A stretch of 64,000 nt of DNA from Fibrobacter succinogenes (lineage in GTDB: Bacteria > Fibrobacterota > Fibrobacteria > Fibrobacterales > Fibrobacteraceae), in the NCBI GenBank assembly GCA_902756345.1, contig CACVQR010000006.1, forward strand, positions 248,001-312,000, read 5' to 3'. The position numbers and the translations under genes are program-made. Every line of letters starts with the position of its first letter. The stretch's first letter is position 1. The notes below the pieces were generated by a model. The model searched no databases and had not been told where the DNA came from. It saw only the letters and a program-made list of their open reading frames with translations. Shown piece after piece: positions 13,921 through 64,000 of this stretch.

Positions 13921-13927
13921 ATTGCAT

Positions 13928-39689: not shown

Positions 39690-39748
39690 CCTTTTTCCAC
39701 AAAATTTGGAGTAATTTTCAGGATTTTCCTTGAAATTGTGGAAACTTT

Positions 39749-45607: not shown

Positions 45608-48289
45608 CTACTTTTGGAGGTCTACAAACAGCGAATCAAGGCGTTCCGAGAGTTGTTTTGCACCCTCCCTACTCAAGTGGTCTGTATTGTACGCCATCGA
45701 TGAAGTATAATCGTGTTTGCCCATCTTATTTTCGTCCATCATGACTGCATTCAGTTTCGCAGCACGCTTCAGCAATTCCTCTGCATGCGACCGTCTTCCG
45801 GCATATATGCCGAACGCCCCCGTCTTGGCATAACCCGGATTTTGAGGGGGCACGACCAATATCACCTGGGCACCTTTTTCAACTAGGGAATTGATGACAA
45901 ATTTGTACAAAGCCATGTTATAATCCACATCGTCATCATCCAGCTCATACTTCATCGTATCATGCACAACCGTAGCACGCCCCCACCCATTCGAGGGCAT
46001 CAGGAATTCGTCGTAACTGTAGGGCTGAGTCTGTTCTGCAATCGGCTTGTACGATTCTTCTACAAGTTCCACAAAACCTTTCGGAATGGAATCCTTCCAG
46101 AAATCATGTGTCTTGTCGTATTTAAAGCCAGGCGATTTCTTGTAAACCGGCGACCAGAAAAGAGCTTCCTTATCCCACATGAAATCTGGCGAGAACTCCA
46201 GCACCGCGAACTTCAATTTCGGCATGTGCTTCAAGACATAGTTGAGAGTCAAGAATGAAATCGCATGAATATCGCCCGAAGGAAATCCCATGTTCAAAAC
46301 GCTTTCAGAATGGATAAACGAAGCATTGATTCCAAACAGCACTCTCGAAGAACCGAGAACAACAGCTGTCGCGGTGTCGTGGGATTTCCAGAACCACTCC
46401 ATCTTGACACGCAAATCGAGCGCATACGATTCCATTTGATCGGTATAGTAAACGCCAGCGCTATCAATATCCAAAAGCGGCGGCACAAAGACTCGTTCAT
46501 CGACATCGAGCCATAGCGCCGGGTGCCAAAGTTCAGTACCCTGCGCAAGTTCGACCCAGCGCTCCGTGTACACGTTTGCAAGAATCAATTTGCGATGAGC
46601 GCCTTCGCTATTCACGAGCGTTGCCACAATCAAGGAATCCACTAGAGGAACCCATTCCGGATGATCAAATGTATATCCTTCTGGAGCCTCAAGCGAGCGC
46701 ACCAGATTACCGGTACTGTCGGCAAAGAAAATCCTCTTGTGCGTTTCGTAATTGCTGCGGACAAACTGGCGCCCCGTCTTGCCGCCAAAATCCAGGAACA
46801 AGGTCATCTTGTTGTTATTCCTGTTCAACGACACATTGCAAGCCTGTTCACCATTGTACCAAATTTCAGAACGTCCATTGCGATTGGCTCGCAGGAGCCG
46901 CGCCCCCGTTACCGCCAAGCGGTTGTCATCGGACACGCCTCCATGATAAGCGCCATCAAAAAGTTTCTGGGGCGTTCCGAATTTTCCTTTCGAGAACTTG
47001 ACCTGCCACGTCGATGTCTGCGCAAAAGATTCGTCGTTCTTGTTATTCGCCGCACTTGTCACATAGACAATCACGGTGTCGCCACTAGCAAGCACACGCC
47101 AGCGCGGAATCACCGCCGATTTTACATCCAGCTTGATTAAAGATTTGTCGGACGCATCTATTTTGCGCACGTAAAGTTCAGAACCTTCCGCAACGCCTTC
47201 AATCCCTGTACAGAAGGCGACCCACTTGCCGTCGGGCGATATATCCGGATGATACGCAGGAACGTTTGCACTCAATTCTTTGGCGACCAATTCATTTTTA
47301 CTAAAATCTACATAATACAGGTTGCCGCTTTTATCTTCGCGGAACACAAGTTTTCCCTTATTCGTAGCAGCAAGCGATTTGAACTTTTTCGAGTTCACCG
47401 ACACCGAAACGTCCGAATCCGTTTCGCGCTCCACATTTCCGATTTGCGAAGCATGAGGAATTGTTCCTAAAGCAAGACGGAAGCCGATATATTCCGCCTT
47501 CGTCGAAGCCGTCACCAGATAGATATCGCCGCGTGTGTACGGCTTAATGGTTTCAGGAGCGTTGCGGAAACTGCCGCCCTTCACGACACGTTCATCGGGG
47601 CCGTAATCCCTTACGCCACCGACAAAGTCTACCCATTCTTCTTCTGTAAACGAAACCAGGTAGTCCCCCACCCATTCCATGGCATTGCCGGCCATGTCGC
47701 AAATACTATCGAGCGTGTAATACGACGTACAAACATCATGCAACAGGTAGTCAGAATTGGCACTCGTCCAGGACTCCTTCGGTTCCCAACCGCGAGTCGT
47801 CACAAAGACCCATTCCGCCTCTGTCGGCAAGCGATACCCGAGTATATCCCAATGGGGCTTAAGCGATTCTAGCCCAATACAAGAGCTGTCATCGTCAAAC
47901 ACAGCTTTTGAATAAGTATAAACCGTATCAAAGCCTTCTTCCTTGCTGCGCTTATTGGCATAAAGCACTGCATCAAAGAACGTGACATCGGTTACAGGCA
48001 AGTCACCGCAATCAAGTCCCATTTCATTGCAAGTGACTTCATGCCTACCTATCATGAAATCGTAATCAAACGAGACCTTCATCGCCGGGCCATCTTTAAT
48101 CGATGCCGAGGATTCATCCGTCCCCAGAATCACGATTTTCCCGTTCGAATGCAAGAGAGCAAAATCTTTCAAATCCAAAGAGTCTAAGGCACTGGTTTCA
48201 TCATGCGGAATCGAAACGTATTCCGAATTGGAACAGCCTTCAAAGCTGATCAAAGCAAGCAATGCAATTATGCAGTAAAAAAGCTTCAT
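45608..48289 (-). CDS. TIGR02171-family lipoprotein A: SUMF1-like, PD40 propeller, SGNH-like C terminus
   Basis: 893 residues, lipobox FEGC. About 55-275: formylglycine-generating/SUMF1-type domain (HEVTCNEMG, YRLPTEAEWVFV, CDMAGNAMEWVGDYL, VVKGGSFRNAP, YIGFRLALG). The two catalytic cysteines of true FGE are absent. About 300-610: beta-propeller-like repeats (YHPDISPDGKWVAFCTG). About 640-893: SGNH-like part with GSSR (646-649) and TDHLSREG (D870, H871). The whole matches the layout of the Fibrobacter paralogous family TIGR02171, of unknown function. It overlaps the upstream paralog by 4 nt (ATGA), so the pair is co-translated. Confidence 0.85.
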   Translation of the reverse strand: MKLFYCIIALLALISFEGCSNSEYVSIPHDETSALDSLDLKDFALLHSNGKIVILGTDESSASIKDGPAMKVSFDYDFMIGRHEVTCNEMGLDCGDLPVTDVTFFDAVLYANKRSKEEGFDTVYTYSKAVFDDDSSCIGLESLKPHWDILGYRLPTEAEWVFVTTRGWEPKESWTSANSDYLLHDVCTSYYTLDSICDMAGNAMEWVGDYLVSFTEEEWVDFVGGVRDYGPDERVVKGGSFRNAPETIKPYTRGDIYLVTASTKAEYIGFRLALGTIPHASQIGNVERETDSDVSVSVNSKKFKSLAATNKGKLVFREDKSGNLYYVDFSKNELVAKELSANVPAYHPDISPDGKWVAFCTGIEGVAEGSELYVRKIDASDKSLIKLDVKSAVIPRWRVLASGDTVIVYVTSAANNKNDESFAQTSTWQVKFSKGKFGTPQKLFDGAYHGGVSDDNRLAVTGARLLRANRNGRSEIWYNGEQACNVSLNRNNNKMTLFLDFGGKTGRQFVRSNYETHKRIFFADSTGNLVRSLEAPEGYTFDHPEWVPLVDSLIVATLVNSEGAHRKLILANVYTERWVELAQGTELWHPALWLDVDERVFVPPLLDIDSAGVYYTDQMESYALDLRVKMEWFWKSHDTATAVVLGSSRVLFGINASFIHSESVLNMGFPSGDIHAISFLTLNYVLKHMPKLKFAVLEFSPDFMWDKEALFWSPVYKKSPGFKYDKTHDFWKDSIPKGFVELVEESYKPIAEQTQPYSYDEFLMPSNGWGRATVVHDTMKYELDDDDVDYNMALYKFVINSLVEKGAQVILVVPPQNPGYAKTGAFGIYAGRRSHAEELLKRAAKLNAVMMDENKMGKHDYTSSMAYNTDHLSREGAKQLSERLDSLFVDLQK

Positions 48290-50994
48290 CTTTTAGACTC
48301 TAGCTTAATCAACAAGGAATCAAGGCGCGCGGTCAATTTTTCTGCACCGGTCCAGCACAAATGATCGTAGTCATAAGCGACATCGCCCAAGTAATCATGA
48401 TTGCCCATTTTGTTTTCATCCATCAACACGAAATTCTTTGTTTTCGACTCAACCGTTTTTAACCGTTCAATCAAGATTTCTGCGTCAGAACGACGCATTC
48501 CGTGACGACCATAACTACCTGTCTTTTTGTAATACGGGCTCACCGGGGTAATCAAGCCGATAACCATCACGTCGTGCTGTTCAGCAATTTTTAGAATTTT
48601 GTCCAACTGGGCATAGTTCAATTCATAGCGGCGGCTATCATCGCTCCAAGTGCTATCGACAACCACGTCTGCAAATTCCTTGCCGTCACTACCCCAATCC
48701 GAAATACATTCCGTACGCATCCAGCCACGAGGATCGATAATATCGGACTGCATCTTATAAGCTTCAGCCACTTTGACCGCCCTTTCTACAAAAGCGCTAT
48801 CGATTTCGCCACGCCAGTAATCGTGATTGTAATCATACCTGAATCCAGGAGCGTCGCCAAAATTAAGCGCCATGCTTTCGCCCGGTTCGTATTCGTCCCA
48901 CAAGTCAAAATCGATGCCTACAACAAGATATTTCAAATGCGAAAAATGCGTCGAAATATATGTTTCATAGAGATTTTCAATGCAGTGCATATCGCAAGGA
49001 ATTGTCGAAAGATTAATGGCGGGCATGCTCAACAAATCCGGCGCCACCGCAGCCTGCATGTGCGAATTGCCTAAGGCCACGACCTCGGCTGAATCGCGGA
49101 ATGTCCACAGCACAGGCATCTTTTGCGTCAGGTAATGCGTCGCCTGGCCACTTTCGGAATAGTAAAGCCCCAGGCTATCGTAATCCCAGCGAGAATTCTT
49201 GTCGCGATCGTGGGCCCAGAATACAGGATGCCAAAGTTCTTCGCCTTCAACAAGAGACAGCATTTCTCCCGTATAGGAATTAACCAGCACGACTTTTTTA
49301 TGACTACCGTTCATGTCGGTGATCGTTGCCACAAAGAATGAATCGGAAGCAAGAATCCATTCCGTATGGTCAAAACTAAAGCCCTCGGGCGAAGCAACTG
49401 AGGTCAATAGTTTTCCGGTGCTATCGGCAATCAGCGCACGTTCATGCGTTCCATAAGACTCACCCACGAACTTGCGCCCCGTCTTGCCGCCAAAATCAAG
49501 GAACAGCGTCTTGTTTTCGCCACCCTGACTCAGCGATACGTTACAGGCCTGATTTTGGTTGTACCAGATTTCAGGTTGACCATTCACATTGGCACGCAAA
49601 AGGCGTGCGCCCGAAACTGCCAAGCGATCGTTCTTGGACACGCCGCCATGATACCCGCCGTCAAAAAGTTTTTCGGGTTTCCCGAACTTGCCTTTCGAGA
49701 ATCGGACTTGCCAAGTTTCTTGTTTGGCAAAGGCATCCTCTTCTTTATTGCTGCCGGCATCGTTCACATAGACAATCACCGTATCGCCATTTTCCAGGAC
49801 TCGGAATCTAGGAATCGCAGCCGATTCTGCCGGAAGTTCAATCAAGGAAGAATCGCTTTCGTCCAAGCGCGTCACGTAGACCTTTGACTTGCCAGAAATT
49901 CCCTCGACACCGGTGCAGAAGGCAACAAACTTACCATCGGGCGAAATATCCGGATGATACGCCGACACGCCCGTATTCAGTTCAAGAACCGGAGCAGACG
50001 CGTCATTAAAATCCACATAGACCAAAACATCACGAGAATCGTCCCTAAAGACCATTTTAGAAAGCGGCTTGTCAATAAACTTCTTGACCGTATTCGTCCT
50101 GACCATCAAGGTGTATTTCTGCAGAACTTCCTTGCCCTGTTTATCGAGGTAAAGCGGGTTTGGAATTGCACCGAACGCCAAACGGAATCCGACATAGTTC
50201 GCCTTTGTCGAAGAGGCCACCATGTAAACATCGCCACGGTTATACACATGAAGCGATGCCGGGTCGTTATTGTAGCTACCACCCTTCAGCACACGTTCTT
50301 CTACGCCTTCGCTAGCCTTGCCGCCCACATAGTCCACCACATCGACGGTATGGAAGGGCACCCACAAATCGTACACCCATTCCATGGCATTCCCCGCCAT
50401 ATCGCAGACACCATTTCTGTCCGTAAATGCCGAGCAGACCGCATGCAGTTTAAAATCGGAATTACCGTTATGCCAAGCCTGCTCCGGTTTCCACCCCATG
50501 TTCGCCACATAAATCCATTCAGCCTCGGTCGGCAAGCGGTACGCATTTACAAGGGGGCGGAAAATAAGTCCGTCGATACCGATGCATGAATGATTCGCGT
50601 CAAACATCAGGTTCGTATAGGAATAAGCCGTATCAAAGCCTTCAGCCTTGCTTTTTTTGTTTGCATAGAGAATGGCATCAAAATAAGTCACATCGGTCGC
50701 AGGCAAGGAATCATCGCAATCCAGTTTCATTTCTTTGCAGGTAACTTCATGCTTGCCGATGAGGAAATCGTAATCAAAATACGATTTCATGCTTGGCCGG
50801 TCCTTGATGGATGCCGATTCTTCGTCGGTTCCGAGAGTTACGGTCTTTCCCTTGGAACGGATAACGACAAAATCTTTTAACCCGAGGGACGCTAAATAAT
50901 CATTTTCGCCCGCACCGGGAGCATATTCAGAATTCGAACACCCAAACAAAGCGATCAACAAGCCTAGAGCAAGCAAGTACAACGAGCGAATCAT
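48286..50994 (-). CDS. TIGR02171-family lipoprotein B
   Basis: 902 residues. I start at MIRSLYLL because it opens a lipoprotein signal (lipobox LFGC) directly after a TATATTTA box; the frame stays open further upstream through the divergent methyltransferase gene but is not real there. SUMF1-like part with YRLPTEAEWIYV, CDMAGNAMEWVYDL and VLKGGSYNND, again without the cysteine pair. Propeller part with YHPDISPDGKFVAFCTG. SGNH-like end with GNSH instead of GSSR and YDYDHLCWTGAEKL. First gene of the A/B pair. Confidence 0.85.
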   Translation of the reverse strand: MIRSLYLLALGLLIALFGCSNSEYAPGAGENDYLASLGLKDFVVIRSKGKTVTLGTDEESASIKDRPSMKSYFDYDFLIGKHEVTCKEMKLDCDDSLPATDVTYFDAILYANKKSKAEGFDTAYSYTNLMFDANHSCIGIDGLIFRPLVNAYRLPTEAEWIYVANMGWKPEQAWHNGNSDFKLHAVCSAFTDRNGVCDMAGNAMEWVYDLWVPFHTVDVVDYVGGKASEGVEERVLKGGSYNNDPASLHVYNRGDVYMVASSTKANYVGFRLAFGAIPNPLYLDKQGKEVLQKYTLMVRTNTVKKFIDKPLSKMVFRDDSRDVLVYVDFNDASAPVLELNTGVSAYHPDISPDGKFVAFCTGVEGISGKSKVYVTRLDESDSSLIELPAESAAIPRFRVLENGDTVIVYVNDAGSNKEEDAFAKQETWQVRFSKGKFGKPEKLFDGGYHGGVSKNDRLAVSGARLLRANVNGQPEIWYNQNQACNVSLSQGGENKTLFLDFGGKTGRKFVGESYGTHERALIADSTGKLLTSVASPEGFSFDHTEWILASDSFFVATITDMNGSHKKVVLVNSYTGEMLSLVEGEELWHPVFWAHDRDKNSRWDYDSLGLYYSESGQATHYLTQKMPVLWTFRDSAEVVALGNSHMQAAVAPDLLSMPAINLSTIPCDMHCIENLYETYISTHFSHLKYLVVGIDFDLWDEYEPGESMALNFGDAPGFRYDYNHDYWRGEIDSAFVERAVKVAEAYKMQSDIIDPRGWMRTECISDWGSDGKEFADVVVDSTWSDDSRRYELNYAQLDKILKIAEQHDVMVIGLITPVSPYYKKTGSYGRHGMRRSDAEILIERLKTVESKTKNFVLMDENKMGNHDYLGDVAYDYDHLCWTGAEKLTARLDSLLIKLESKR

Positions 50995-51789: not shown

Positions 51790-51838
51790 GAAATCTTACC
51801 TTCCTACTTCCTACTGTCTACTGCCTACCGTCTACTAC
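51772..51838. repeat. GTAGGAAGTAG array between convergent stop codons
   Basis: GTCGGAAGCAGAAAGTAGGA, then CTTCCTACTTCCTACTGTC and TACTGCCTACCGTCTACTAC form an inverted array. Its left edge contains the TAG of the methyltransferase and its right edge the TAG of the convergent propeller gene. Confidence 0.65.
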
Positions 51839-53049
51839 TTCGCCAGCGACTTCACAGCGTCGGTCAGGCGGTCGATTGCCTGGATGAGTTCGTCCATCTT
51901 GGCTTCGCTCACACCACCGGCAACAGCGGCGGGCACACTTGCGGCAGTCGCGGCAGCCTGAGCAACAGGCTTTGCAGGTTCCTTCACCGGGACCTTGCCG
52001 AGCCAAATATCCGGCCAGCGGTCATTGCCGCTATGATAGGTAATGCGCGTTGCGGTTTCTACCGGTTCGCCAATCTTCCAGATATAGAGTTCGTAGTCGA
52101 ACAAGTCGTGGTCATGGCCCTTGTCGGTTGCACCCCATACGAGCCACTTGCCATCGGGAGAAAGACGCGGGAAATATTCATGACTGCGGCGGCCAGGCAG
52201 GTCCATCAACTTCACATTCTTCGGAATGCCGAAGAAGCCCACCTTTTCAATCTGCTTGCCGTCCTTGGCGCTGAACCAGAGGATTTCACTCGGGGCAGCG
52301 GTACCGCCGTTACCCGTCGGGTTCACGCGGTAAAGCTTGGAGCCATCAAAGTTCCAGTCAATCTGGCAACCGTCGCCAGACTTGGTCCAAGCGTTCTTAG
52401 TCAAATCCCACACGCCCGTTTCGCGCATAGAGCCGCGGAGCGTAATGGCCAAGTGCTTGCCATCGGGGCTCATGTTCGGTTCCTGCAGAATCACGCCGGA
52501 CTTGTTGAAAGCCTTTTCTCCATCGAGCACGAGAGTCTCTTTTTTGCTGGCGAGGTCCATCGTAAACACTTTGCCTGCGCGGCTAAATACAATCGACTTG
52601 CCGTCGGGTCTCCAAGTGCCCCACGTCGCATTGTCCACCACCTTGCGTGGATTAACACCAAGGGAATTTTCGCCCGAAATGTCGACCATCCACAAGTCCC
52701 ACTTTTCCGGGTAGTTGGCATCGTTTTCAGGCACCCAGCCGCCCTTGCTGCGGTTAAAGAGCACCGTCGAGCCATCCGGAGAAATGCGCGGGAACCAGTC
52801 TACATTGTCACCCTGCGTAAGGGCACGGGCGTTCGTACCGTCTGCGTTCATGATCCAAATGTCATGATGGCTATTCGCGCGACTCGTGGCCCACACAATA
52901 GCCCCCTCGAGCTTACCCTTCAGGGCATCGAGAGCCTTTTGTTCGTCGGCAGTAGGATCAACGGCGGCACCCGTCGGAGCGCCCTGCTGGGCAAATACCG
53001 AGGTCACGCCAAAAGCGGCACAGGCACAAAACTTCACAAACTTATTCAT
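51835..53049 (-). CDS. Secreted PD40/TolB-type beta-propeller protein
   Basis: 404 residues. Signal peptide (MNKFVKFCACAAFGVTSVFA). Several PD40 repeats: DIWIMNADGTNARALT, FPRISPDGSTVLFNRS, TWRPDGKSIVFSR, EPNMSPDGKHLAITLRG and FPRLSPDGKWLVWGATD. The C-terminal 50 residues are alanine-rich and end in a short helix (SEAKMDELIQAIDRLTDAV). Probably periplasmic or surface; ligand unknown. The propeller words resemble those in the TIGR02171 lipoproteins nearby. A TATCTTTA box ends 4 nt before the ATG. Confidence 0.85.
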   Translation of the reverse strand: MNKFVKFCACAAFGVTSVFAQQGAPTGAAVDPTADEQKALDALKGKLEGAIVWATSRANSHHDIWIMNADGTNARALTQGDNVDWFPRISPDGSTVLFNRSKGGWVPENDANYPEKWDLWMVDISGENSLGVNPRKVVDNATWGTWRPDGKSIVFSRAGKVFTMDLASKKETLVLDGEKAFNKSGVILQEPNMSPDGKHLAITLRGSMRETGVWDLTKNAWTKSGDGCQIDWNFDGSKLYRVNPTGNGGTAAPSEILWFSAKDGKQIEKVGFFGIPKNVKLMDLPGRRSHEYFPRLSPDGKWLVWGATDKGHDHDLFDYELYIWKIGEPVETATRITYHSGNDRWPDIWLGKVPVKEPAKPVAQAAATAASVPAAVAGGVSEAKMDELIQAIDRLTDAVKSLAK

Positions 53050-53126: not shown

Positions 53127-54509
53127 TTATTGCAAGCGAATCTTTTGCATCACAGTCGCATTTTTAGCCTGAATGCGAACCATATAGACACCAGCAGGTA
53201 ATCCCTGGAGGTCCATTGCCTGACTCCCCGCCTGCGTCTTGACCGCATGGCCAGCCACATTGAACACGTCAACGCGGGCGGCACCGTCGGTGCAGACTTG
53301 GAGCGTGCGGCCCTGCAGCGAAACCGCCGGAGCGTTTGCAACTTTGGACTTCGCGATGCCGGTCATGCCGGAATTTGCGTTCATGAGGTTCGGCATGTTA
53401 CCCGAAACCAAGAGGCCGTTCAAGAGCTTGAGCGACTGGTTAAAGTAGTTCTCGTCGCCGAGCGCCACCGCTTCTTTCCAATATTCATCAAGCTTAGCTT
53501 GGTACTTGGAATCCGAAATGAGTGCGGTCATCAAAGATGTCACGAATGTACTGTTGTGGTCATTGCCGAGACTGCCCGAAGAACGAATCACGGGGCCCTT
53601 CATGTCCGAAGCATTCACCTTAGACACGAACTCCGCCATCTTCTTGTCGATGGCGAGCGCACGCTGGTCGCCATGCCAGCACACGGCCTTCGCGTTACGC
53701 CACGGGGCGCGCGAGGCATCGTAGCTATAATAATCGTCTTCGCTCTTGCCGTTTTTGTCGGTCCAGTCATCCACCAGGCCCGTCGAGACTTCGTCAGAGC
53801 TCGATTCGTACAACTTCATATTCGCATCGTAGGCTGTCTTACTCCAGAATTCGGCATTTTCTTCATCGATTGCGGCAAACAAGGGCATGTAAGCCGGATC
53901 GAAGTAACCCGGGTTCTTGCGGTTATAAGCAGCATCACCCCACTTGTCGCCCGGCATGTGCAAGCCGTTGCTTTCGAACTCGGACTTTTTCATGGCCTGA
54001 ATCAATTTCTTGGCATCTTCCTTGTACTTCTCATCGCCAAATTGGTAGTACGCCATCACAAGGGCGGCAGCGGCATCGATATCGCCATCGAGAGCGGCAC
54101 CGTTGCCCGCATCCCAAGATTCCGAAAGATTACCGATTTTCCAGATCATGAGTCCGTTTTCGTTCTGGAACTTTTTGTAAAAATTCCAGATTTTGTCGAA
54201 TTCGGCCTGATAGCTCGTCGTGTTGTCGCTAAAGTAGACCATCAGAAGCATGCCGTAGCCGACACCTTCCGAAAAATATGCATCAGAACCGGGGTCAGAA
54301 CGTATGCCTGCGATATCGCCCGATTCGTTGTACATGGCCTGTTTCCAGTACAGAAACTGCTTTTTCAGCTGTTCCGAAGCGGCGGCCTTGTCGCTCAGAA
54401 GAGTCGCATTGCCACCATAGTCAGACATCTGCGGAAACGGGAAATTCACCGTCGCTTGAGAAAGACTAAACGCCAACGCCAAAGACGCGGCCCAAACTTT
54501 ACATCCCAT
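53127..54509 (-). CDS. Secreted glycoside hydrolase family 8 (endoglucanase) with C-terminal sorting domain
   Basis: 460 residues. Start MGCKVWAASL with AAGGAG upstream (a longer in-frame start at 54557 would cross the promoter box). Signal peptide to about residue 19. GH8 core about 45-370 with the proton donor E81 (YFSEGVGYGM) and the ALDGDIDAAAAL block (D141, D143). The C-terminal ~70 residues end in GLPAGVYMVRIQAKNATVMQKIRL, a type IX-like sorting domain. It should cut internal bonds in cellulose or mixed-linkage glucan, although GH8 also includes xylanases and chitosanases. Confidence 0.93.
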   Translation of the reverse strand: MGCKVWAASLALAFSLSQATVNFPFPQMSDYGGNATLLSDKAAASEQLKKQFLYWKQAMYNESGDIAGIRSDPGSDAYFSEGVGYGMLLMVYFSDNTTSYQAEFDKIWNFYKKFQNENGLMIWKIGNLSESWDAGNGAALDGDIDAAAALVMAYYQFGDEKYKEDAKKLIQAMKKSEFESNGLHMPGDKWGDAAYNRKNPGYFDPAYMPLFAAIDEENAEFWSKTAYDANMKLYESSSDEVSTGLVDDWTDKNGKSEDDYYSYDASRAPWRNAKAVCWHGDQRALAIDKKMAEFVSKVNASDMKGPVIRSSGSLGNDHNSTFVTSLMTALISDSKYQAKLDEYWKEAVALGDENYFNQSLKLLNGLLVSGNMPNLMNANSGMTGIAKSKVANAPAVSLQGRTLQVCTDGAARVDVFNVAGHAVKTQAGSQAMDLQGLPAGVYMVRIQAKNATVMQKIRLQ

Positions 54510-54535
54510 ATATATACTCCTTTTTTCTCTACCCT

Positions 54536-54543
54536 CAAAGATA
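54536..54543 (-). promoter_or_regulatory. Promoter box of the GH8 gene (TATCTTTG)
   Basis: Minus-strand ATTATCTTTGAGGG, 27 nt before the ATG. Confidence 0.5.
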
Positions 54544-54716
54544 ATGGATTTTTGCAAAAAAACAACTTTTATTTTTGCGTTTCGTGTTTAAAATCACGCT
54601 AAAAAGCTGTAAAAAAAGCGATTTTCGCCCATTATACAGGTGTAAACAGAAAAAGGTTCCGTTTTTTGTCGTTTTCGCATTCCAAAACCTATTTTCCGTA
54701 AAAAAAGGGATGTTCT

Positions 54717-56162
54717 ATGAAGACTTTAACCATATCCGCATTTTTGTCGTCTTTGGCACTGTGCGCAACGCTTGCCACCGCCCAAGACATTACCCCCACC
54801 CGCGTAGGGCCTGTCAGCCAATACGGTCAGCTGATGACCGGCAAGAACTCGCAAGGTCAGGGCCGCATTTACGGCAGTTGTGAAGGCGTCAAGGACGGTG
54901 CCGAAGTGCAGGTGCGCGGCATGAGCCTTTACTGGAGCTTAATGCCCCAGGCTCTGGAATTCTGGAGCGAAGAAGGCATTTCCACCATGGTGAACGACAT
55001 GAAGATACAAATCGTGCGCGCCGCTATGGCTACCGGCAACGAAGACTGGAAAGGCGAATGGAACGGCATTCAGCTCAAGGGCTACGCCAGCGACCCCAAC
55101 AACCAGAAACAATTTATGAAGACGGTTGTCGAAGCGGCAATCAAGAACGATATTTACGTGATTATCGACTGGCATTCTCACGAAGCCCACAAGCAGACCG
55201 ATGCGGCAAAGGGCTTTTTCAAGGAAATGGCCGAGGCATACGGTAAGTACGACAACGTCATTTTCGAAGTCTACAACGAACCGCAGCAGATTCCTTGGAG
55301 CGATGTCAAGAACTACGCAAACCAAGTCATCGAAGTGATCCGCCAGTATTCCGACAACCTGGTGCTCGTGGGCAACCCCTCCTGGGACCAGAATCCGTCT
55401 GACGCAATCGGCAACGAAGTGAACGACCCCAAGAAAAACACCGCTTACACCCTGCACTACTACGCCAACAGCCATAACTGGGAAGGCAATTACAGCTGGG
55501 GCGGCGAAAGCGAAGGCGTCAAAGGCGAAAAGGCTATCAAAGCAGGGCTCTCCGTGTTTATTTCGGAATGGGGAACCGGCAACGCCGACGGCAAGGGAAC
55601 TCCGGATCAAGGCCGCAACCAAAGCTGGCAGGAATACGTGAACAAGTATCAGCTTTCTTGGGCGAACTGGTCTGCATCCAAGATCAGCGAAGGTACCGCA
55701 GCATTTGAAGGATCCTCAACCAAGACTTCGCTCCAGTACACCACCTCGGGTAACCTGGTGAAGGGCTACCTTTCTACCAACCCCGACAGCTACACCAAGT
55801 GCGCAGCCAACAGCAACAGCAACAACAACAATCAAAGTCAGGGCGACAGCAACAATAATCAGAATCAGAACGAAAACAACAACCAAGGCAACAACAATCA
55901 AAACAACAACCAAAATGGCAACAACAACACCGCCATTTCCATGCAGACCAATTTGAATTTCAACGTGACCTTCTCGGGCAACGCCTTGCACATTGCAGGT
56001 TCCCCCATGACGGTCGAAATATTCAGCACCAAGGGCAACAAGCTCATGGCTGTCGATAACGTGAGTGGCACGCTTTCGCTCGCCAAACTCCCTGTCGGCA
56101 TGTACGTTGCGAAGGTTCGCGGAAACGGAACGAACATGGTGCGGGCAATTCAGATTAAGTAA
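54717..56162 (+). CDS. Secreted glycoside hydrolase family 5 endoglucanase
   Basis: 481 residues. Signal peptide (MKTLTISAFLSSLALCATLATA). GH5 domain about 25-360 with acid/base E188 (FEVYNEPQQ), nucleophile E284 (FISEWGTGNA), DWHSHEA and LHYYANSHNW, as in subfamily-2 cellulases. Then an asparagine/glutamine-rich linker (about 364-405) encoded by AAC/CAA-rich DNA, and a sorting-type C-terminal domain (VEIFSTKGNKLMAVDN, LPVGMYVAKVRGNG). It cuts internal beta-1,4 bonds of cellulose. Divergent from the GH8 gene and sharing a 207-bp intergenic region. Confidence 0.95.
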   Translation: MKTLTISAFLSSLALCATLATAQDITPTRVGPVSQYGQLMTGKNSQGQGRIYGSCEGVKDGAEVQVRGMSLYWSLMPQALEFWSEEGISTMVNDMKIQIVRAAMATGNEDWKGEWNGIQLKGYASDPNNQKQFMKTVVEAAIKNDIYVIIDWHSHEAHKQTDAAKGFFKEMAEAYGKYDNVIFEVYNEPQQIPWSDVKNYANQVIEVIRQYSDNLVLVGNPSWDQNPSDAIGNEVNDPKKNTAYTLHYYANSHNWEGNYSWGGESEGVKGEKAIKAGLSVFISEWGTGNADGKGTPDQGRNQSWQEYVNKYQLSWANWSASKISEGTAAFEGSSTKTSLQYTTSGNLVKGYLSTNPDSYTKCAANSNSNNNNQSQGDSNNNQNQNENNNQGNNNQNNNQNGNNNTAISMQTNLNFNVTFSGNALHIAGSPMTVEIFSTKGNKLMAVDNVSGTLSLAKLPVGMYVAKVRGNGTNMVRAIQIK

Positions 56163-56328: not shown

Positions 56329-57791
56329 TTGATCATTTTATCGAATACGGCGAAGTATTCGTCGCGATATGCCAGGTGCCAGCGGGAATCTTGCTGCAAA
56401 GCACGCAGAAGTGTATCCCAGCGGGCATAGTACTGCAGCGGGAATAGGGCGCGGTCTATGCCTAAGGAATCGGCGTCATGCATAAACAGGGCGGGGTCTT
56501 TGGCGTAATTCAGATACCGTTCAAAGAAATCCGCCGTCTTAAGGATAAACCTGCCATCGATGTAAATGGAATCAGTCGGGTTCATTAAAGCCAGGTAACC
56601 GCCGGCACGATCATCGTTAAAAAGCTTACCCTTATGCGGATGATTTTGCATCCAGTCTGTCGCATCAACCGGCACACGCTGGCAAGCGACCATGGAGATG
56701 TCGTAAGCAGAAAGTGAACGAACCCAGAGACCGAAGATAAAAAAAGTAGGAAGTAGGAAGTAGACAGTAGACAGTAGGCGGCAGGATGTGAAATGTGGAG
56801 TGTGAAATGGGAAATTAGGCAATGTCGCTAAAAGTACCGGCAGGAACAATACGAAATTACGTTCGGCAATAAGGACAAGGATTGCTGTCGCCAAGAGAGA
56901 GACATTCAAAACATCCGGCCTGCGATTCTTATACAAGCGCCAAATGGCAAGTCCCATTCCTGCTAGGCAGAGCAAAATCATCAGCACACATTCCAGTGTA
57001 TTCTCCCCCTCCATCAAAAGCGTGAACGGAGAACGGTTCTCGGCGATTTCGCTTGCAAAGATTGCCGCCGAGGGCGAAAGTCCAAGCAAACGGTCCAAGA
57101 GTCCAAACGGGTACAGGAATAACGCGAGGCCCTCGCGATGCAAGAACGGCATCGCAAACAATGCAACAACAAAAGCTCCCCGCAACGCAAACGCCTTCCG
57201 AGAAAACTTATCACCCGACTTACGCGAATTCCAAATTCCGGCAGTCAACACAAGCACCGCAAACAGCGGGCCCAAAATGTACAGGCCCTGCGTTTTGCAC
57301 CAAGTCCACTGTATGGCAAGAATAAGAACCGCAAAAAGCGTGTTCACCGGGGTCAAGCGACTGTTCGCAAACAACCTCGGCAAGACATTCCAATAAATCC
57401 CGAGAAACAATAGCGAAAACAGCACCGGACGCATTTCAAAATGATAGCGGAATACAAAAAGCAGAACAACTGCAACTAGAGACCGCCTCATACAACTAGA
57501 GATTGCCGCGGTCCTTCGGACCTCGCAATGACATTTAGGATTTTCAGGCAACAAGAAAAGTGCAAACACGACGCCCCAAAGAATCGCCTTGAATGCCACC
57601 AAGAGCGGAGCGCCACCCAAACCGTAGACAAAGCCTACCGCCAGTTGAAAATATTCATGCACGTTCACAACGGGCGTGCGGACAGGTGTCCACGTAGTCA
57701 CCCATTCGCGAGCACAAGCCAAATGCCACCAGATGTCGGTATCGGTCAGCGGAAAAATCGCGAACAGAATGACAAATACAGCAATTACCAT
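56325..57791 (-). CDS. Polytopic membrane protein, GT-C glycosyltransferase-like, with repeat-derived inserts
   Basis: 488 residues with about 10 membrane segments. The N-terminal TDTDIWWHLACAREW matches the DTDxWWHL motif of GT-C-like membrane proteins, and the C-terminal soluble part has FNDDRAGGYLALMNP and SIYIDGRF, typical of the same group. It may use lipid-linked sugars on the outer face of the membrane; the substrate is unknown. It overlaps TIGR02171 gene C by 7 nt, so it is translated with it. Residues about 84-100 (KCHCEVRRTAAISSCMRR) and 324-349 are translated dispersed repeats. Confidence 0.75.
   Translation of the reverse strand: MVIAVFVILFAIFPLTDTDIWWHLACAREWVTTWTPVRTPVVNVHEYFQLAVGFVYGLGGAPLLVAFKAILWGVVFALFLLPENPKCHCEVRRTAAISSCMRRSLVAVVLLFVFRYHFEMRPVLFSLLFLGIYWNVLPRLFANSRLTPVNTLFAVLILAIQWTWCKTQGLYILGPLFAVLVLTAGIWNSRKSGDKFSRKAFALRGAFVVALFAMPFLHREGLALFLYPFGLLDRLLGLSPSAAIFASEIAENRSPFTLLMEGENTLECVLMILLCLAGMGLAIWRLYKNRRPDVLNVSLLATAILVLIAERNFVLFLPVLLATLPNFPFHTPHFTSCRLLSTVYFLLPTFFIFGLWVRSLSAYDISMVACQRVPVDATDWMQNHPHKGKLFNDDRAGGYLALMNPTDSIYIDGRFILKTADFFERYLNYAKDPALFMHDADSLGIDRALFPLQYYARWDTLLRALQQDSRWHLAYRDEYFAVFDKMIK
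56744..56818. repeat. GTAGGAAGTAGACAGTAG and GTGAAATGTGGAGTG array inside the GT-C-like gene
   Basis: AAGTAGGAAGTAGGAAGTAG, ACAGTAGACAGTAGGCGGC, then GATGTGAAATGTGGAGTGTG. Two families side by side, read in frame on the minus strand. Confidence 0.65.
57490..57535. repeat. CATTGCGAGGTCCGAAGGACCGCGGCAATCTC repeat inside the GT-C-like gene
   Basis: On the minus strand: TCATTGCGAGGTCCGAAGGA, CCGCGGCAATCTCTAGTTGT. A typical dispersed element of the GTCATTGCGAGG...GCAATCTC type, translated as CHCEVRRTAAISSC. Confidence 0.65.
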
Positions 57792-60505
57792 TTCAATGTT
57801 TTCAGAACAGAATCCAGGCGGTCTGTCAACTGCTTTTTACCAGCAACACAGAGGTGGTCACGGTTAAAAGCCATTTGATCGGGATAATCATGATCGCCGA
57901 ACTTATTTTCATCCATCAAGATGAAATATCGGTTTGCCTTGGCAAGCGCATCCAGCTTTTTCTTTTTTTCGGGATACTTACTGCGCTGCAGACCGTAAGT
58001 ACCAAAGCTTCCCGTCTTTTTGTACTGGGGGGCCATCGGGAAAATGATCCCGATAACATAGATATTCTTGGCGGCCGCACTATCTACGATTTCGGCCAGT
58101 TCGTTCAATCTTGCATCCAGATAGCGTTCCTCTTGCGTCGAGAATACAGAATCCATCAGCACGTCGGTTCCGTCAACACCCCAGCTGCGGCATTCATCAT
58201 CAAGTCCACCGCGGGCGGAATAGCGCTGGATCCAGCCCTGACTTGCCGGGTACGCATTTTCAACCGCCTCGACAAAACCATTGGGCAATCCCGATTTCCA
58301 GAAGTCGTGATGGGCATCGTAATCGTAACCGGGAACACCCATATGAATCAAACTCAAGTGGTCTTCCCTTCCGCTCCAATTGTCCAAATCTAGGGACATC
58401 ACAATCGCTTTCAAGTTGTCGGCATGGTTCAACGCATAATTTTCAACGAAATACATATCGCGGTTTCCGTCAATTCCAGAAACAGCCGTATTCAGCATGT
58501 TCCATTCCGGGTACGCATCCGGATCAAGCCCCATTTCCATTCTAGAACTCCCGACCAAAAGAACTTCGGTTACATCGAGATTCTTCCAGTAGAGTTCCAT
58601 CTTGATACGGTTTTTTTCGGTTTCAATGTCCAGGCCTTCGCCATAATAAACGCCAGCGCTATCCAAGGCCAACAAATCGTCGTAACCCGTAAAGGCAACA
58701 TTCACCCAGAATGCAGGGTGCCAAAGTTCATCGCCTTCGGCCAATTCCAAAGTGCTTGAATCCGAAAGGTCCACCATAACGATTTTTGTATGGGCACCGT
58801 TTGCGTTCGTAAGCGTAGCAACCGCCTTATTATGGTTACCCGGGACCCATTCGCTGTGGTCAAAAGAATATCCCTTCGGGGCTCCCACCGATTGAATCAA
58901 CTTGCCTGTACTATCTACGACAAGAATGCGTTCATGTGTCCCGTACTTGGAGCCGACAAATTTTCGACCTGTCTTGCCGGCAAAATCGAGAAACAAGGTG
59001 CGTTTGCTGCTATCTTGAGCTAGAGAGGCATTGCAAGCCTGTTCACCATCGTACCACAATTCAGATTCAGAACCTACACGGGCTCGCAGCAAGCGTGCAC
59101 CCGTTACCGCAAGGGATCCATCTTCGGCAATACCGCCATGGTAAGCGCCATCGAAAAGTTTTTTCGGTTCGCCAAATTTACCCTTCGAGAATTTCACCTG
59201 CCATGTAGATGTAGACTTGAACGAGGCATCATCCTTGTTGTTGCCGGCATCGGTTACATACACAATGACCGTATCACCGTTTTCAAGCACTCGCCAGCGC
59301 GGAATGGCGGCCGATTCAACATCCAGCTTGACAATGTCAGAACCTTCGGCATTCAGGTTGCGCACATAAACAGCCGACTTGCCAGAAACGCCCTCAAGCC
59401 CGGTGCTAAAGGCGACCTTTTGCCCATCCGGCGAAATATCCGGATGATACGCATTCAAGGTATCTTCGATTTCAATCACCGAAAGCGCACCGTTAGAATA
59501 ATCTACATAAGACAGATTCCCCGACAGATCGTTTCGGAATACAAGTTTCATCTTGTAGGTTCCAAAGATGTTCCTAAGCGTCGAGGAACTGGCAAGCGGA
59601 ACCACGCGGCTGCCAGCCGCCTTACCATCGGAATTCATCCACAAGGCATTCGGAACTGCACCAAAAGCTAAGCGAAAGCCCACATAGTCTGCACGGGTTG
59701 AAGACGTCACCGTATACACGTCACCACGGCCAAAGAGCGTAATCGATTCGGCCGGAGTCCTGTAGCTGCCGCCCTTCACGACACGCTGGCCGAGGCTTCC
59801 GCCATCGGGAGCCCCCACGTAGTTCGCAATAGTCGTGTCGCGGAAATTACCGAGCCAATCATTCACCCATTCCATTGCGTTTCCGACCATGTCGCAAACC
59901 TGGGCATCCAAAGACCTCGAGCAAACCGCATGCAAATGATAATCCGAATTGTCAGACGTCCATGCGGCCTTCGTATTCCAGAAGCGGTTTGCCACAAAGG
60001 CCCATTCTGCTTCCGTCGGCAAGCGGTAAGCCTTGACTTCGGGGTGGAAGGCAAAGCCTTCCAGGTTCACGCAATGATTTTCAGAATTCAGTTCAACTTT
60101 ACTGTAGGTATACGCCGTATCAAAGCCCTCTTTTTTACTGCGGGCATTAGCAAAGAGAACTGCATCGTAATACGTCAAATTCGTCGCCGGATAAGCATCC
60201 TTTTCGCAAGGGACCGAAATTTTCGAAGACTTCATCAGCGAATTGAATTCAGCGCAAGTCACCTCGGACTTGCCGATAGAAAAATCGTAATCCAGAATCA
60301 CCAACATTTGTGGGCGTTCGCTAGCCTTGGCAACACCTTCATTGGTACCAAGCATCACTTCTTTCTTGTCATGCTTGACCGCAACCATGTTGTCTAGCGA
60401 GTCAGATTCAAATGCAGAATCAACATTTTGCTGCGAATAAATGTATTCCGAGTTTGAGCAAGCATAAAAAGCGACACTCAGCAGCAACAATAAAATCCGA
60501 CACAT
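57785..60505 (-). CDS. TIGR02171-family lipoprotein C
   Basis: 906 residues, lipobox FYAC. SUMF1-like part (SEVTCAEFNSLMK, YRLPTEAEWAFV, CDMVGNAMEWVNDWL, VVKGGSYRTPA) without the FGE cysteine pair; propeller part (YHPDISPDGQKVAFSTG); SGNH-like end with GSSRMEMG and NRDHLCVAGKKQL. It starts 3 nt after gene D, with GAGGTAAG as ribosome binding site inside the gene D end, and overlaps the following GT-C-like gene by 7 nt. The run D-C-membrane protein is therefore one operon. Confidence 0.85.
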   Translation of the reverse strand: MCRILLLLLSVAFYACSNSEYIYSQQNVDSAFESDSLDNMVAVKHDKKEVMLGTNEGVAKASERPQMLVILDYDFSIGKSEVTCAEFNSLMKSSKISVPCEKDAYPATNLTYYDAVLFANARSKKEGFDTAYTYSKVELNSENHCVNLEGFAFHPEVKAYRLPTEAEWAFVANRFWNTKAAWTSDNSDYHLHAVCSRSLDAQVCDMVGNAMEWVNDWLGNFRDTTIANYVGAPDGGSLGQRVVKGGSYRTPAESITLFGRGDVYTVTSSTRADYVGFRLAFGAVPNALWMNSDGKAAGSRVVPLASSSTLRNIFGTYKMKLVFRNDLSGNLSYVDYSNGALSVIEIEDTLNAYHPDISPDGQKVAFSTGLEGVSGKSAVYVRNLNAEGSDIVKLDVESAAIPRWRVLENGDTVIVYVTDAGNNKDDASFKSTSTWQVKFSKGKFGEPKKLFDGAYHGGIAEDGSLAVTGARLLRARVGSESELWYDGEQACNASLAQDSSKRTLFLDFAGKTGRKFVGSKYGTHERILVVDSTGKLIQSVGAPKGYSFDHSEWVPGNHNKAVATLTNANGAHTKIVMVDLSDSSTLELAEGDELWHPAFWVNVAFTGYDDLLALDSAGVYYGEGLDIETEKNRIKMELYWKNLDVTEVLLVGSSRMEMGLDPDAYPEWNMLNTAVSGIDGNRDMYFVENYALNHADNLKAIVMSLDLDNWSGREDHLSLIHMGVPGYDYDAHHDFWKSGLPNGFVEAVENAYPASQGWIQRYSARGGLDDECRSWGVDGTDVLMDSVFSTQEERYLDARLNELAEIVDSAAAKNIYVIGIIFPMAPQYKKTGSFGTYGLQRSKYPEKKKKLDALAKANRYFILMDENKFGDHDYPDQMAFNRDHLCVAGKKQLTDRLDSVLKTLKW

Positions 60506-60508: not shown

Positions 60509-63268
60509 TTACCTCAATTCCTTCAATACCGCTTCAATCCGTTTTGTAATTTGGGGTGCCGCTCTTGCGCAAAGATGGTCTTCATCAGCAGCGGAATATT
60601 CGTCATAATCATGTTTCCCCATCTTGTTTTCATCCAGTAGCCTGAAATGCGGATATGTTTTTTCCAAAGCCTTCAAGTCATCAATGAGTTCTTTAGCACG
60701 GCTCCTGCGCAAGCCGTAACGACCAAATGCACCCGTTTTTCTGTATGCCGGATTTTGCGGGAAAATAACACCTACGACGCTAACGCCCCTCTCTTCAGCC
60801 TTTTCAAGAATTTTCTTGAATACTTTCATAGAATTCTCAAGCGTTTCCGGATGATCGTCATAGTAAAGGGAATCCATTTCTATATCGGGATTCTTGCTCC
60901 AGGGCTTACAACCTGTTCCAAGCATACGACCGCGGTCATCCAAGAAGGCGTAGTCGCCTTCAATCGTCATGTAATTCTCAGTATATTCCAACAAGCCTTC
61001 CGGATACCCGTCTTGCCAGTAATTGTGATTCTTGTCGTACACGAACCCGGCATAGTTCTTGTAATTATCGTTGAAGAAATTGTCGCTATCGGGGCCTTTT
61101 TCCGTCTTGTACCAGAAATCGATATCCAGAGAAATCACAATGTATTTCAGCTTTTTGAAATGCGGATAGATGTAGAAGTCCAAGAAATCCTTCGACATGT
61201 ATATGGAATTAGGCGTCTGGGCGAGATTGATCGCATAGAACGGCTGAACCAGGTACCTGGGCGACACGGAATGCAAGGGACGCGACGAACCGACAATCAC
61301 GACATTTGCCGTATCACGGTAACGCCAGATCAATTCCATATTGTAGCGCATCAAAATGCCTTCAAGATTTTCGCCGGCATGCATGTAGACGCCCGCGCTA
61401 TCGCCATCGACTTCAAACTTGGATTTATCCAAAGCGTCCGGAATCCAGAGGCACGGTTGCCACAAGTCATCGCCTTCGACCAAATCGGTCATGCTGCTGT
61501 CTTGCATATTGACGAGCACAATCTTCCTGTGCATTCCGCTTGCTTCCGTAAGAGTAGCTACGGCATAGTCCGAACGGCCGCGCACCCATTCCGTATGATC
61601 AAAGGAATAGCCCAAAGGCGCCTTTATGGAGCTTATCAGTTTACCCGTGCTGTCCATGACCAGAATGCGTTCATGAACGCCGTAAGACTCGCCCACAAAT
61701 TTTCGGCCCGTTTCTCCGCTAAAATCAAGGAACAAGGTCTTCTTGGAGCCATCGGTTGCAAGCGATACATTGCAAGCCTGCTCGCCATTATACCACACGG
61801 TATCGCTGGCCTTGGATTCCAACGTCGAGGTTCCCTGAGCCACCTTTGCACGTAGCAGCCTGGCCCCAGTCACGGCCAAGCGTTCGTCACCGCTGATTCC
61901 GTCATGGTATGCGCCATCAAAAAGCTTTTGCGGTCTACCGAACCGTTCTTTCTGGAACTTCACCTGCCAAGTCTCCAAACGCTTGAACGAGCCGTCATTC
62001 CTGTTGTCGCCGGCATCCGTCACATAGACAATCACCGTATCGCCATTCGGAAGAACTCTCCAACGGGGAATCGATGCGTTATCGACCTTCAGTTTGAATA
62101 TTTTAACATAGCCCAGCGAAAGCGTTCTGACATACACTTCGGATTTGCCCGAAACGCCTTCAAGCCCTGTAGAGAAGGCGACAAAACGTCCGTTTGGCGA
62201 AACATCCGGATGGTACACTTCCAAAGTATCCTTGATTTCGGCCGTATAAATGGTGCCGTCCGAATAGTTCACGTAGGCCAGATTACCAGTCAAGTTGTTG
62301 CGGAATGCAAGGACAACCTTATATGCATCCAAATGATTCTTTAACGTGCGCTGGTTCACTAACGAAATCACGCGCTTGGAATTGGGAATGCCGTCATAGT
62401 CCATCCACACCGCGTCAGGAATTTGACCAAATGCCAAGCGGAAACCGACATATTCCGCACGAGTTGACGAGGTAATCGTATACACGTCGGTACGGCTGTA
62501 CAAATTGATTGCGCTTCCTAGCTGGCGATAGCTACCGCCCTTCACGATTCGCTTACCCATGTTGCCGCCATCTGGCGACCCCGTGTAATTGTAGATGGTC
62601 GTATCCCTAAAGAATCCGAGCCAGTCATTGACCCATTCCATGGCGTTGCCCGCCATATCGCAAAAATCCGTAGAATCAGAAATTCGAGTACAAACCTCAT
62701 GCAGCTGAATTCCCGAATTTTCGGCATTCCAGCTCGCCCGCGGATTCCAGTTACGGCCAGCTACTACGACCCATTCCGCTTCGGTCGGCAAACGATAGCC
62801 ATCTACATCGGTATGAAAATAAAATCCTTCAAGGAACGTACAATGTCCATCGCTATCGATCTGTTTACTCGAGTACGAATACACCGTATCGAAATTTTCC
62901 GCCTTGCTTTTTTCGTTGGCATACAAGACAGCATCGTAATATGTCATGTCTGTCGCAGGGAGATTCTTGTTTATGCAAGAAAGTTTGAGTCCCTGAGGTT
63001 TCATCAACTTATTGAATTCGCCACAAGTGACTTCGTGCTTGCCCATGGAAAATGAATAGTCAACCTTGACTTTCATTTGGGGGTATTCTTCCAGCTTTGC
63101 AGCAGTATCGTTCGTTCCAAGAATCGCTGTCGCATTATAAGCCGTCACACGAATCATGCCGTCCAGTTTATCTTTTGAAACTCCAAGATAAACATAATCG
63201 GATGTAGGATTCACATCGGCGCAAGCAAAAAACAGGAGCGATATTAAAGAAAGTAAAATAACCCGCAT
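60509..63268 (-). CDS. TIGR02171-family lipoprotein D
   Basis: 919 residues, lipobox FFAC. SUMF1-like part (HEVTCGEFNKLMK, YRLPTEAEWVVV, CDMAGNAMEWVNDWL, IVKGGSYRQLG) again without catalytic cysteines; propeller part (YHPDVSPNGRFVAFSTG); SGNH-like end with GSSRPLHS and DEDHLCARAAPQ. A TATTTTTA box ends 4 nt before the ATG, so transcription may start here despite the transglutaminase-like gene 35 nt upstream. Confidence 0.85.
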   Translation of the reverse strand: MRVILLSLISLLFFACADVNPTSDYVYLGVSKDKLDGMIRVTAYNATAILGTNDTAAKLEEYPQMKVKVDYSFSMGKHEVTCGEFNKLMKPQGLKLSCINKNLPATDMTYYDAVLYANEKSKAENFDTVYSYSSKQIDSDGHCTFLEGFYFHTDVDGYRLPTEAEWVVVAGRNWNPRASWNAENSGIQLHEVCTRISDSTDFCDMAGNAMEWVNDWLGFFRDTTIYNYTGSPDGGNMGKRIVKGGSYRQLGSAINLYSRTDVYTITSSTRAEYVGFRLAFGQIPDAVWMDYDGIPNSKRVISLVNQRTLKNHLDAYKVVLAFRNNLTGNLAYVNYSDGTIYTAEIKDTLEVYHPDVSPNGRFVAFSTGLEGVSGKSEVYVRTLSLGYVKIFKLKVDNASIPRWRVLPNGDTVIVYVTDAGDNRNDGSFKRLETWQVKFQKERFGRPQKLFDGAYHDGISGDERLAVTGARLLRAKVAQGTSTLESKASDTVWYNGEQACNVSLATDGSKKTLFLDFSGETGRKFVGESYGVHERILVMDSTGKLISSIKAPLGYSFDHTEWVRGRSDYAVATLTEASGMHRKIVLVNMQDSSMTDLVEGDDLWQPCLWIPDALDKSKFEVDGDSAGVYMHAGENLEGILMRYNMELIWRYRDTANVVIVGSSRPLHSVSPRYLVQPFYAINLAQTPNSIYMSKDFLDFYIYPHFKKLKYIVISLDIDFWYKTEKGPDSDNFFNDNYKNYAGFVYDKNHNYWQDGYPEGLLEYTENYMTIEGDYAFLDDRGRMLGTGCKPWSKNPDIEMDSLYYDDHPETLENSMKVFKKILEKAEERGVSVVGVIFPQNPAYRKTGAFGRYGLRRSRAKELIDDLKALEKTYPHFRLLDENKMGKHDYDEYSAADEDHLCARAAPQITKRIEAVLKELR

Positions 63269-63303: not shown

Positions 63304-64000
63304 TTACAGGTGGTCCGGTAAACGGCTTTTAGCAATTTCCTGGTTCGCCTTGATGCCCGGATATTCCGCAAAAAACTCTTCGGCCATGCGGTACCAGGTC
63401 AAAGCGCGGCGCAAGTCGCTATCCAAGTACAGGTTTCCCATATTGAAAGCCGCAAGCCCCACGAACTGTGTGGGCGTAAGAGGTTTGAATTCCAACCCCG
63501 TCCAAGGCCCCGCCTTGTATTTTTCACGGTATTCTTGGTCTGAATAGCTATAGCCTTCGCGATTTGGCTCCAGATTAATCGCGGTCGAAGAGTCTGCCCC
63601 ATAGCGCAAGAACACATGCCCCGGGAGCATGATAACCGAAAGCGGCAAGCTTCGCGCCTCGGCAACCATCATCGCAAGCCAAGAAAGACCCATGCAGCCG
63701 GACTTTTTCATTTGCAACACATGCAATGGGAGTATCGCTTCGGCCGTAACGGCCGCATCGCCTGCGCCCGCAAATTCAAGGCCCCAATAAGTCCACAGCA
63801 AACTTTTCAGGCTCCACAAGGTATCACCAGTCATCGCAAGCGAACTGTCGAAATAAGCAAGTCCACCGTTCCACGATTCAAGAGAATCAAGGCATCCCGG
63901 CAAGCGGTCTTCAAAGGTACAGGCCGCATCCCTAAAATTCATCGTCTCGGCTCGCCCGCTCCAAAGCACCAACGTAAGTGACGCCGCAAAGACGACAATC
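63304..64000 (-). CDS. Transglutaminase-like (SirB1/Transglut_core2 type) exported protein, N terminus beyond the edge
   Basis: At least 231 codons; the frame is open to the window edge, where IVVFAASLTLVLWSG looks like the core of a signal peptide. The block SGCMGLSWLAMMVAEARSLP, PLSVIMLPGHVFLRY and NLEPNREG fits Transglut_core2 (cysteine, GHVFLR). The last 60 residues resemble a TPR (AFNMGNLYLDSDLRRALTWY). It precedes the TIGR02171 D/C genes on the same strand and may belong to their operon. Function unknown. Confidence 0.75.
   Translation of the reverse strand, partial: IVVFAASLTLVLWSGRAETMNFRDAACTFEDRLPGCLDSLESWNGGLAYFDSSLAMTGDTLWSLKSLLWTYWGLEFAGAGDAAVTAEAILPLHVLQMKKSGCMGLSWLAMMVAEARSLPLSVIMLPGHVFLRYGADSSTAINLEPNREGYSYSDQEYREKYKAGPWTGLEFKPLTPTQFVGLAAFNMGNLYLDSDLRRALTWYRMAEEFFAEYPGIKANQEIAKSRLPDHL

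Follow-up and report, generated by a model that had tools for sequence, protein, structure and literature searches.

TIGR02171 lipoprotein genes in the window

The interval 45608-50994 of the window, by which we mean the whole 64,000-nucleotide stretch of Fibrobacter succinogenes DNA analysed, consists of two minus-strand genes, P0001 and P0002, which overlap by 4 bases. Two further genes of the same family, P0003 and P0004, are also present in the window.

45608..48289, minus strand: P0001, TIGR02171 lipoprotein of 893 aa with lipobox cysteine C19 (TIGR02171 score; C19 in 115 of 118 alignment rows)
48286..50994, minus strand: P0002, TIGR02171 lipoprotein of 902 aa (TIGR02171 score)
57785..60505, minus strand: P0003, TIGR02171 lipoprotein of 906 aa (TIGR02171 score)
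60509..63268, minus strand: P0004, TIGR02171 lipoprotein of 919 aa (TIGR02171 score)

All four proteins scored 1048-1226 bits against the curated cut-off of 544.35 for the NCBIfam family TIGR02171, with near-whole-protein coverage, and five full-length copies were found in the genome. The initial annotation had read one domain order in all four, namely an FGE-like domain, a propeller, and a C-terminal domain common to them, and this was borne out, with the quoted motifs present [YRLPTEAEW, CDM(A/V)GNAMEW, KGGS, GFRLA, YHPD(I/V)SP(D/N)G, G(S/N)S(R/H), and (D/N)xDHL]. A match above the cut-off occurred in 36 of the 60 relatives searched, often several per genome. The family had been regarded as described only as Fibrobacter paralogs of unknown function; no paper mentioning TIGR02171 was found in the literature searched, which included excerpts of the S85 genome paper (PMC3079729) and of two proteome papers (PMC6851124 and PMC4619616), but the family is not confined to the genus, as it was also present in other families of the phylum. 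Among the matches listed for Fibrobacter literature on SGNH/MBOAT-type O-acylation and on paralogous families, there was likewise no paper on TIGR02171.

The 118-row alignments used below were composed of 114 rows from named loci and the four window proteins; L102 and L138, which were shorter than the others, had been dropped from the 116 reference rows. The locus set represents the best 80 of 208 relatives (77 loci) and so leans to P0001-like copies. Shorter relatives were also seen: propeller-only proteins of about 340-420 aa occurred at L092, L104, L110, L113, and L125, some beside the partner genes c0 and c1 described below, and L081 and L084 encoded the FGE and propeller domains but neither the SGNH tail nor a separate tail frame of at least 250 aa.

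Three predicted domains of P0001

The AlphaFold model of P0001, built from 118 sequences, was confident (mean pLDDT 92.3, pTM 0.84). As predicted by this model, P0001 opens with an FGE/C-type-lectin-type domain, continues with a TolB-like propeller, and closes with an α/β domain of SGNH fold.

47456..48193, minus strand: FGE/C-type-lectin-type domain without the active-site cysteine pair, P0001 residues 33-278 (Pfam FGE-sulfatase, E 7.7e-19; TvpA 2y3c, Z 27.0)
46499..47407, minus strand: TolB-like beta-propeller, P0001 residues 295-597 (TolB 2hqs, Z 22.5; PD40 E 0.025, under the Pfam cut-off)
45611..46477, minus strand: predicted SGNH-fold domain, P0001 residues 605-893 (model m32124ec8b5c2; homologous P0002 domain folded alone)
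48289..49188, minus strand: predicted SGNH-fold domain folded alone, P0002 residues 603-902, with Ser644, Asp875, and His878 (model m004efc443460)

Residues 33-278 of P0001 matched, in order, the structures of TvpA, PvdO, FGE, and PorK, and a family profile retrieved TvpA by sequence as well (E 2.6e-25). TvpA, which has a ligand-binding role, is the closest solved relative of this domain; its solved chain of 278 residues is without the propeller and the SGNH tail of TIGR02171. It is a variable protein of a diversity-generating retroelement. In FGE, the active-site cysteine pair follows the KGGS motif (human C336/C341). Across the 118 rows, Cys was not a leading letter at any of columns 241-255, and none of these is a Cys column; 7 Cys occurred at column 240 only. 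Five conserved cysteines were found elsewhere in the FGE-type domain of the same alignment. The label of a cysteine-less SUMF1-like domain therefore applies to the active-site pair, which is gone, but not to the domain as a whole, which keeps the five other cysteines.

An alternative reading is a T9SS-related envelope component similar to GldK/PorK. GldK/PorK is, like TIGR02171, a lipoprotein with an FGE-type fold (9mzu, Z 21.6), and a Por_Secre_tail protein is encoded nearby. TvpA, however, is closer than GldK/PorK, and we consider such a role very improbable. The TIGR02171 proteins missed the GldK/PorK family cut-off, and identity with GldK was rejected on scores (20-28 bits versus 350 for TIGR03525). 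GldK is not known to have a propeller or an SGNH tail.

For the second domain, TolB was the closest solved fold, at an identity of 12%. The proteins missed the cut-off of the TolB family TIGR02800 (343 bits), with 12.8-13.8 bits where listed and E values of 0.02-0.04. The propeller named in the initial annotation does appear in the predicted model, but its PD40 label scored under the Pfam cut-off; because of this score, the propeller assignment rests on the model.

The C-terminal tail is predicted to adopt an SGNH fold

Because FGE and propeller matches took up all the places listed in the whole-protein fold searches, the C-terminal 300 residues of P0002 were folded alone (pLDDT 93.3, pTM 0.93). 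The predicted topology begins with a strand and a helix headed by GNS42; a second strand, closing with N59, and three further strands come next, before H276 and the last helix. Foldseek gave CgnD, DltD (rank 2), and EstL5 as the best matches (E 2e-4 to 9e-4), with PatB lower. VIA-align placed a designed scaffold (Z 15.1) and PAF-acetylhydrolase 1bwq (Z 14.3) at the top; DltD 3bma (Z 13.1) followed over 255 residues, the longest alignment among the matches listed, and PatB (Z 12.4), TesA (Z 12.4), OatA (Z 11.5), and the carbohydrate esterases 7ddy (Z 12.2) and 7tog (Z 11.7) were also found. The best Z scores belong to the designed scaffold and to hydrolases, not transferases, by a margin over DltD that is near the tie limit. 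Since most of the domain aligned at Z near 13-15 and the list was filled by SGNH proteins, the SGNH assignment of the modelled tail is clear. These matches agree with the earlier reading of the C terminus as SGNH-like, the predicted fold taking in the last ~290 residues; the fold is not unrelated to SGNH, and the GSS serine and the DHL histidine lie at the expected places of the topology.

Sequence comparisons were fainter. A HMMER alignment of the tail to 1bwq paired the block I and block V motifs weakly (E 1.9), setting the serine of the query against GDS and position 868 against the Asp of DxxH. Pfam searches with 24 tails gave only sub-threshold matches (DUF1574 0.026, SGNH 0.11, Lipase_GDSL_2 0.18). 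None of these 24 tails matched DltD PF04914, the likeness to DltD being in fold only, and none matched AlgX/AlgJ PF16822; the order S648...H871 is also not the permuted one with H before S.

Conservation of the predicted active site

45686..45688, minus strand: codon of Asn868, block V acid position (D77 N75 G3 S1 of 156)
45677..45679, minus strand: codon of His871 in block V, predicted catalytic base (His in 156/156)
46346..46348, minus strand: codon of Ser648 in block I GSS, predicted nucleophile (Ser in 156/156)

The count of 156 proteins comprises 152 full-length proteins and the four window proteins, 14 partial matches being left out. G646, S648, N666, D852, and H871 were invariant in all 118 alignment rows. 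Among 34 distant members, the block I Ser was present in all and the block V His in 33, the remaining one being a gap; the block V acid position was D in 29 and N in 4, with one gap. A FastTree phylogeny of the region preceding the tail (154 of the 156 proteins, 4 of these neither D nor N) required at least 22 changes between D and N at position 868, 13 of them forced by well-supported branches, compared with a shuffled mean of 50. Asp and Asn at the block V acid are thus clustered on the tree, yet have switched repeatedly. A strict tandem pairing of an Asp copy followed by an Asn copy, as suggested by the window, failed (DN 22, NN 17, ND 15, DD 4, others 5). Separately, the stretch DENKxGxHDY (P0001 residues 852-861), which follows the last strand and precedes block V, was conserved nearly like the predicted catalytic residues, with D852 in 118 of 118 rows and H859 in 116.

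The block II glycine was not conserved, as no invariant Gly occurred at columns 671-672 of the 118 rows, or likewise in the distant members, and there was no invariant Asn near columns 700-702 of the 118 rows. According to excerpts of two papers, other SGNH families have atypical oxyanion holes (PMC9487903), as does PatB (PMC12148441); block II is atypical in PatB and one OatA and block III in SASA (PMC9487903, PMC12148441), and Ser-His dyads are known in CE2 esterases (PMC9487903). Because Asn stands at the block V acid in half of the paralogues and there is no conserved block II glycine, some of the copies could be inactive. Extended to the whole family, the tail would be a degenerate SGNH domain that binds an acylated polymer or a partner, as the cysteine-lost FGE domain would, and the proteins would be mostly binding or assembly scaffolds. 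The loss of the FGE active-site cysteines, the many alternations of Asp and Asn at the block V acid, and the existence of propeller-only and tail-less relatives are consistent with this reading. A dead fold, however, would not need the Ser and His kept in 156 of 156 proteins, or the Ser kept in 34 of 34 distant members. We consider a scaffold role unlikely, though plausible.

Conserved operon partners of TIGR02171

56325..57791, minus strand: P0005, polytopic membrane protein, cluster c2, conserved operon partner (neighbour clustering)
63304..64000, minus strand: transglutaminase-like protein of cluster c1 (Transglut_core2), truncated at the edge of the window (Pfam; neighbour clustering)
51835..53049, minus strand: PD40 propeller protein, cluster c5; similar proteins close the distant clusters described below (neighbour clustering)

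Neighbour clustering over 79 loci (77 named and two of this genome) revealed three recurrent partners, c0 in 28 loci, c1 in 28, and c2 in 27. The order c0, c1, TIGR02171 copies, c2 was found in 21 of the 32 loci holding any partner (31 named and L177 of this genome); in one of the 21, L113, a propeller-only copy lies between c0 and c1. L097 and L106 have the order c0, c1, c2, then TIGR02171, and the remaining nine loci were cut, without a partner, or different. The window contains P0004, P0003, c2 (P0005), and most of c1, with c0 just beyond it. The P0002-P0001 pair lies farther along, between a SpoU methylase and SurE, a site that has a TIGR02171 gene in L109 as well. GH11, GH8, and GH5 genes were observed near the lipoprotein clusters (window 37991-41626 and 53127-56162).

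The partner c0 carries an AlgX/AlgJ acetyltransferase domain (PF16822, E 3.5e-19), in which DTH and GDS were invariant in 19 of 19 members and stood in the permuted AlgX/AlgJ order. In c1, Transglut_core2 was matched at E 2.4e-8, and C125 and H151 were invariant in 20 of 20. P0005 had no Pfam or NCBIfam match and no PDB sequence match, and 20 c2 members gave only stray weak matches against Pfam; a glycosyltransferase (GT-C) identity, suggested by a D-x-D-x-WWH motif, was given no weight. PDB searches with the c0 and c1 profiles returned nothing firm (AlgJ 4o8v, E 0.22).

Co-occurrence of TIGR02171 with its partners across the phylum

When 167 genomes from the phylum were compared, 94 had both TIGR02171 and c1, 62 had neither, and 5 and 6 had only one of them, an agreement in 156 (Fisher p 1.8e-32, in a test that ignores shared ancestry and assembly gaps). 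For this test, G037, G057, G065, and G088 were removed from the TIGR02171 set as weak or free-standing matches, and G037 from the c1 set. TIGR02171 and c2 also agreed in 156 of the 167 (93 both, 63 neither, 6 and 5 single). Fourteen genus-mate genomes without TIGR02171 (e.g., G116 and G124, 99% complete) were without c1 and c2 as well, and kept an MBOAT. The presence of an MBOAT alone was rejected as a signal because it was uninformative, occurring in 141 of the 167 genomes, including ones without TIGR02171.

These data bear on the initial proposal of an esterase for acetylated xylan. On that reading, a surface enzyme would strip plant polysaccharides of acetyl or other acyl groups while its binding modules dock on plant fibre. 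The predicted SGNH fold with carbohydrate esterases among its matches, the glycoside hydrolase genes nearby, and the ability of CE2 xylan esterases to use a Ser-His dyad (PMC9487903) are consistent with it. None of the 24 tails, however, matched a carbohydrate esterase family above the Pfam cut-off; the conserved partners are the AlgX-like acetyltransferase, c1, and c2, whereas GH8 (cluster c4) occurred in only 15 of the 79 loci compared with 27-28 for c0, c1, and c2; and these partners accompany TIGR02171 in remote families of the phylum too. The tail's relatives are MBOAT partners more than known plant-polysaccharide esterases, and the gene set looks built for surface-polymer acylation. As stated, the proposal was not supported. 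The genomic setting and the closest relatives favour MBOAT/SGNH acylation of polymers on the cell's own surface, and we judge a plant-polysaccharide esterase to be unlikely, though conceivable.

Gene-context links to MBOAT acyltransferases

Distant clusters (L215, L216, L217, and L224) begin with an MBOAT, followed in order by an AlgJ-like protein, c0, c1, c2, and a propeller protein; c1 was seen in L215 and L224 but in neither L216 nor L217. Because the TIGR02171 genes of these distant genomes, where present, are on other contigs, the link there is one of co-occurrence, not adjacency. In Fibrobacter itself, the operon does not include the MBOAT; in this genome, which encodes two MBOATs, the distance to c0 is about 7 kb. 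All 11 MBOAT C-terminal ends that were read, including the window's own (13922-15778), had F(I/L)YFQF, and FxYxxF is given as an acyl-shuttle motif in the excerpt of PMC12148441.

Five free-standing relatives of the tail were found in 23 genomes, not counting a 44-residue match (G061:C47) and a frame-broken TIGR02171 tail (G044:C21). Three adjoin an MBOAT (L205, L207, and L225, the last at G044:C20); of the two not beside one, L204 and L206, one adjoins an AMP-binding enzyme and the other, at a partly masked locus, neither. In L219 (G049), a further tail relative (profile E 1e-14) overlaps an MBOAT that lies 1.7 kb from a TIGR02171 gene.

Among known systems, the predicted tail shares its SGNH fold and extracytoplasmic location with DltD and PatB, SGNH proteins of canonical order that work with MBOAT acyltransferases; 255 of the 300 residues of the tail aligned with DltD, and the free-standing relatives beside MBOATs are a DltD/PatB-like trait. 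Unlike DltD and PatB, the TIGR02171 tail comes after an FGE-type domain and a propeller in a single chain and has no MBOAT gene beside it in Fibrobacter; unlike DltD, it is without a Pfam DltD match. AlgX/AlgJ probably belongs to the same kind of pathway; the operon partner c0 has its PF16822 domain. According to the excerpt of PMC9487903, AlgX/AlgJ is circularly permuted, with H before S, whereas the TIGR02171 tail has S before H.

A proposed role in surface-polymer O-acylation

With about even confidence, we propose that TIGR02171 proteins are lipid-anchored SGNH enzymes that act, with two binding modules, in a surface-polymer O-acylation pathway. Domain order, predicted folds, the invariant Ser and His, the gene cluster, and the co-occurrence are observations; from them we infer catalysis, and its direction (transfer or hydrolysis), the acyl group, the polymer, and contact with the MBOAT are putative in the same way. 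The proteins would be anchored in the envelope by their lipid, and the non-catalytic FGE/lectin-type domain and the TolB-like propeller would bind a polymer or a partner, while the C-terminal SGNH domain would handle an acyl ester via Ser648 and His871. The pathway would most likely be an AlgI/AlgJ/AlgX kind of O-acylation of surface polymers: the MBOAT would load an acyl group onto the tyrosine of its C-terminal FxYxxF, SGNH proteins would accept it on a serine, and the TIGR02171 paralogues would pass it on to particular polymers or take it off them. If the lipoproteins are in the outer membrane, they could not directly reach an inner-membrane MBOAT. Given the variable block V acid and the tail-less and propeller-only relatives, some copies may only bind. 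The initial annotation had called this architecture a new type of machine, which is too strong, as CE2 enzymes already combine an SGNH domain with binding modules (PMC9487903, excerpt).

Most Fibrobacter, which are key cellulose degraders of the rumen, carry an expanded TIGR02171 family with several copies in each genome, and its predicted SGNH active site together with an AlgI/J/X-type cluster gives a specific surface-polymer acylation hypothesis for a lipoprotein family without an assigned function. Such acylation could bear on adhesion to fibre and on other surface interactions. More speculatively, and in our view doubtful, one MBOAT acyl supply might be steered to different surface polymers by an expanded set of lipid-anchored SGNH acyltransferases, with many paralogues per genome and a separate lectin-type module and propeller in each, and the recurrent Asp/Asn switch at the block V acid might tune transfer versus hydrolysis or active versus regulatory copies.

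Elsewhere in the window, at 10148-15778 on the plus strand, neighbouring genes for a pair of GDSL-type proteins (Lipase_GDSL_2, E 2e-8 and 5e-11) precede the MBOAT, which ends in FIYFQF, and these genes constitute a separate MBOAT/SGNH cluster.
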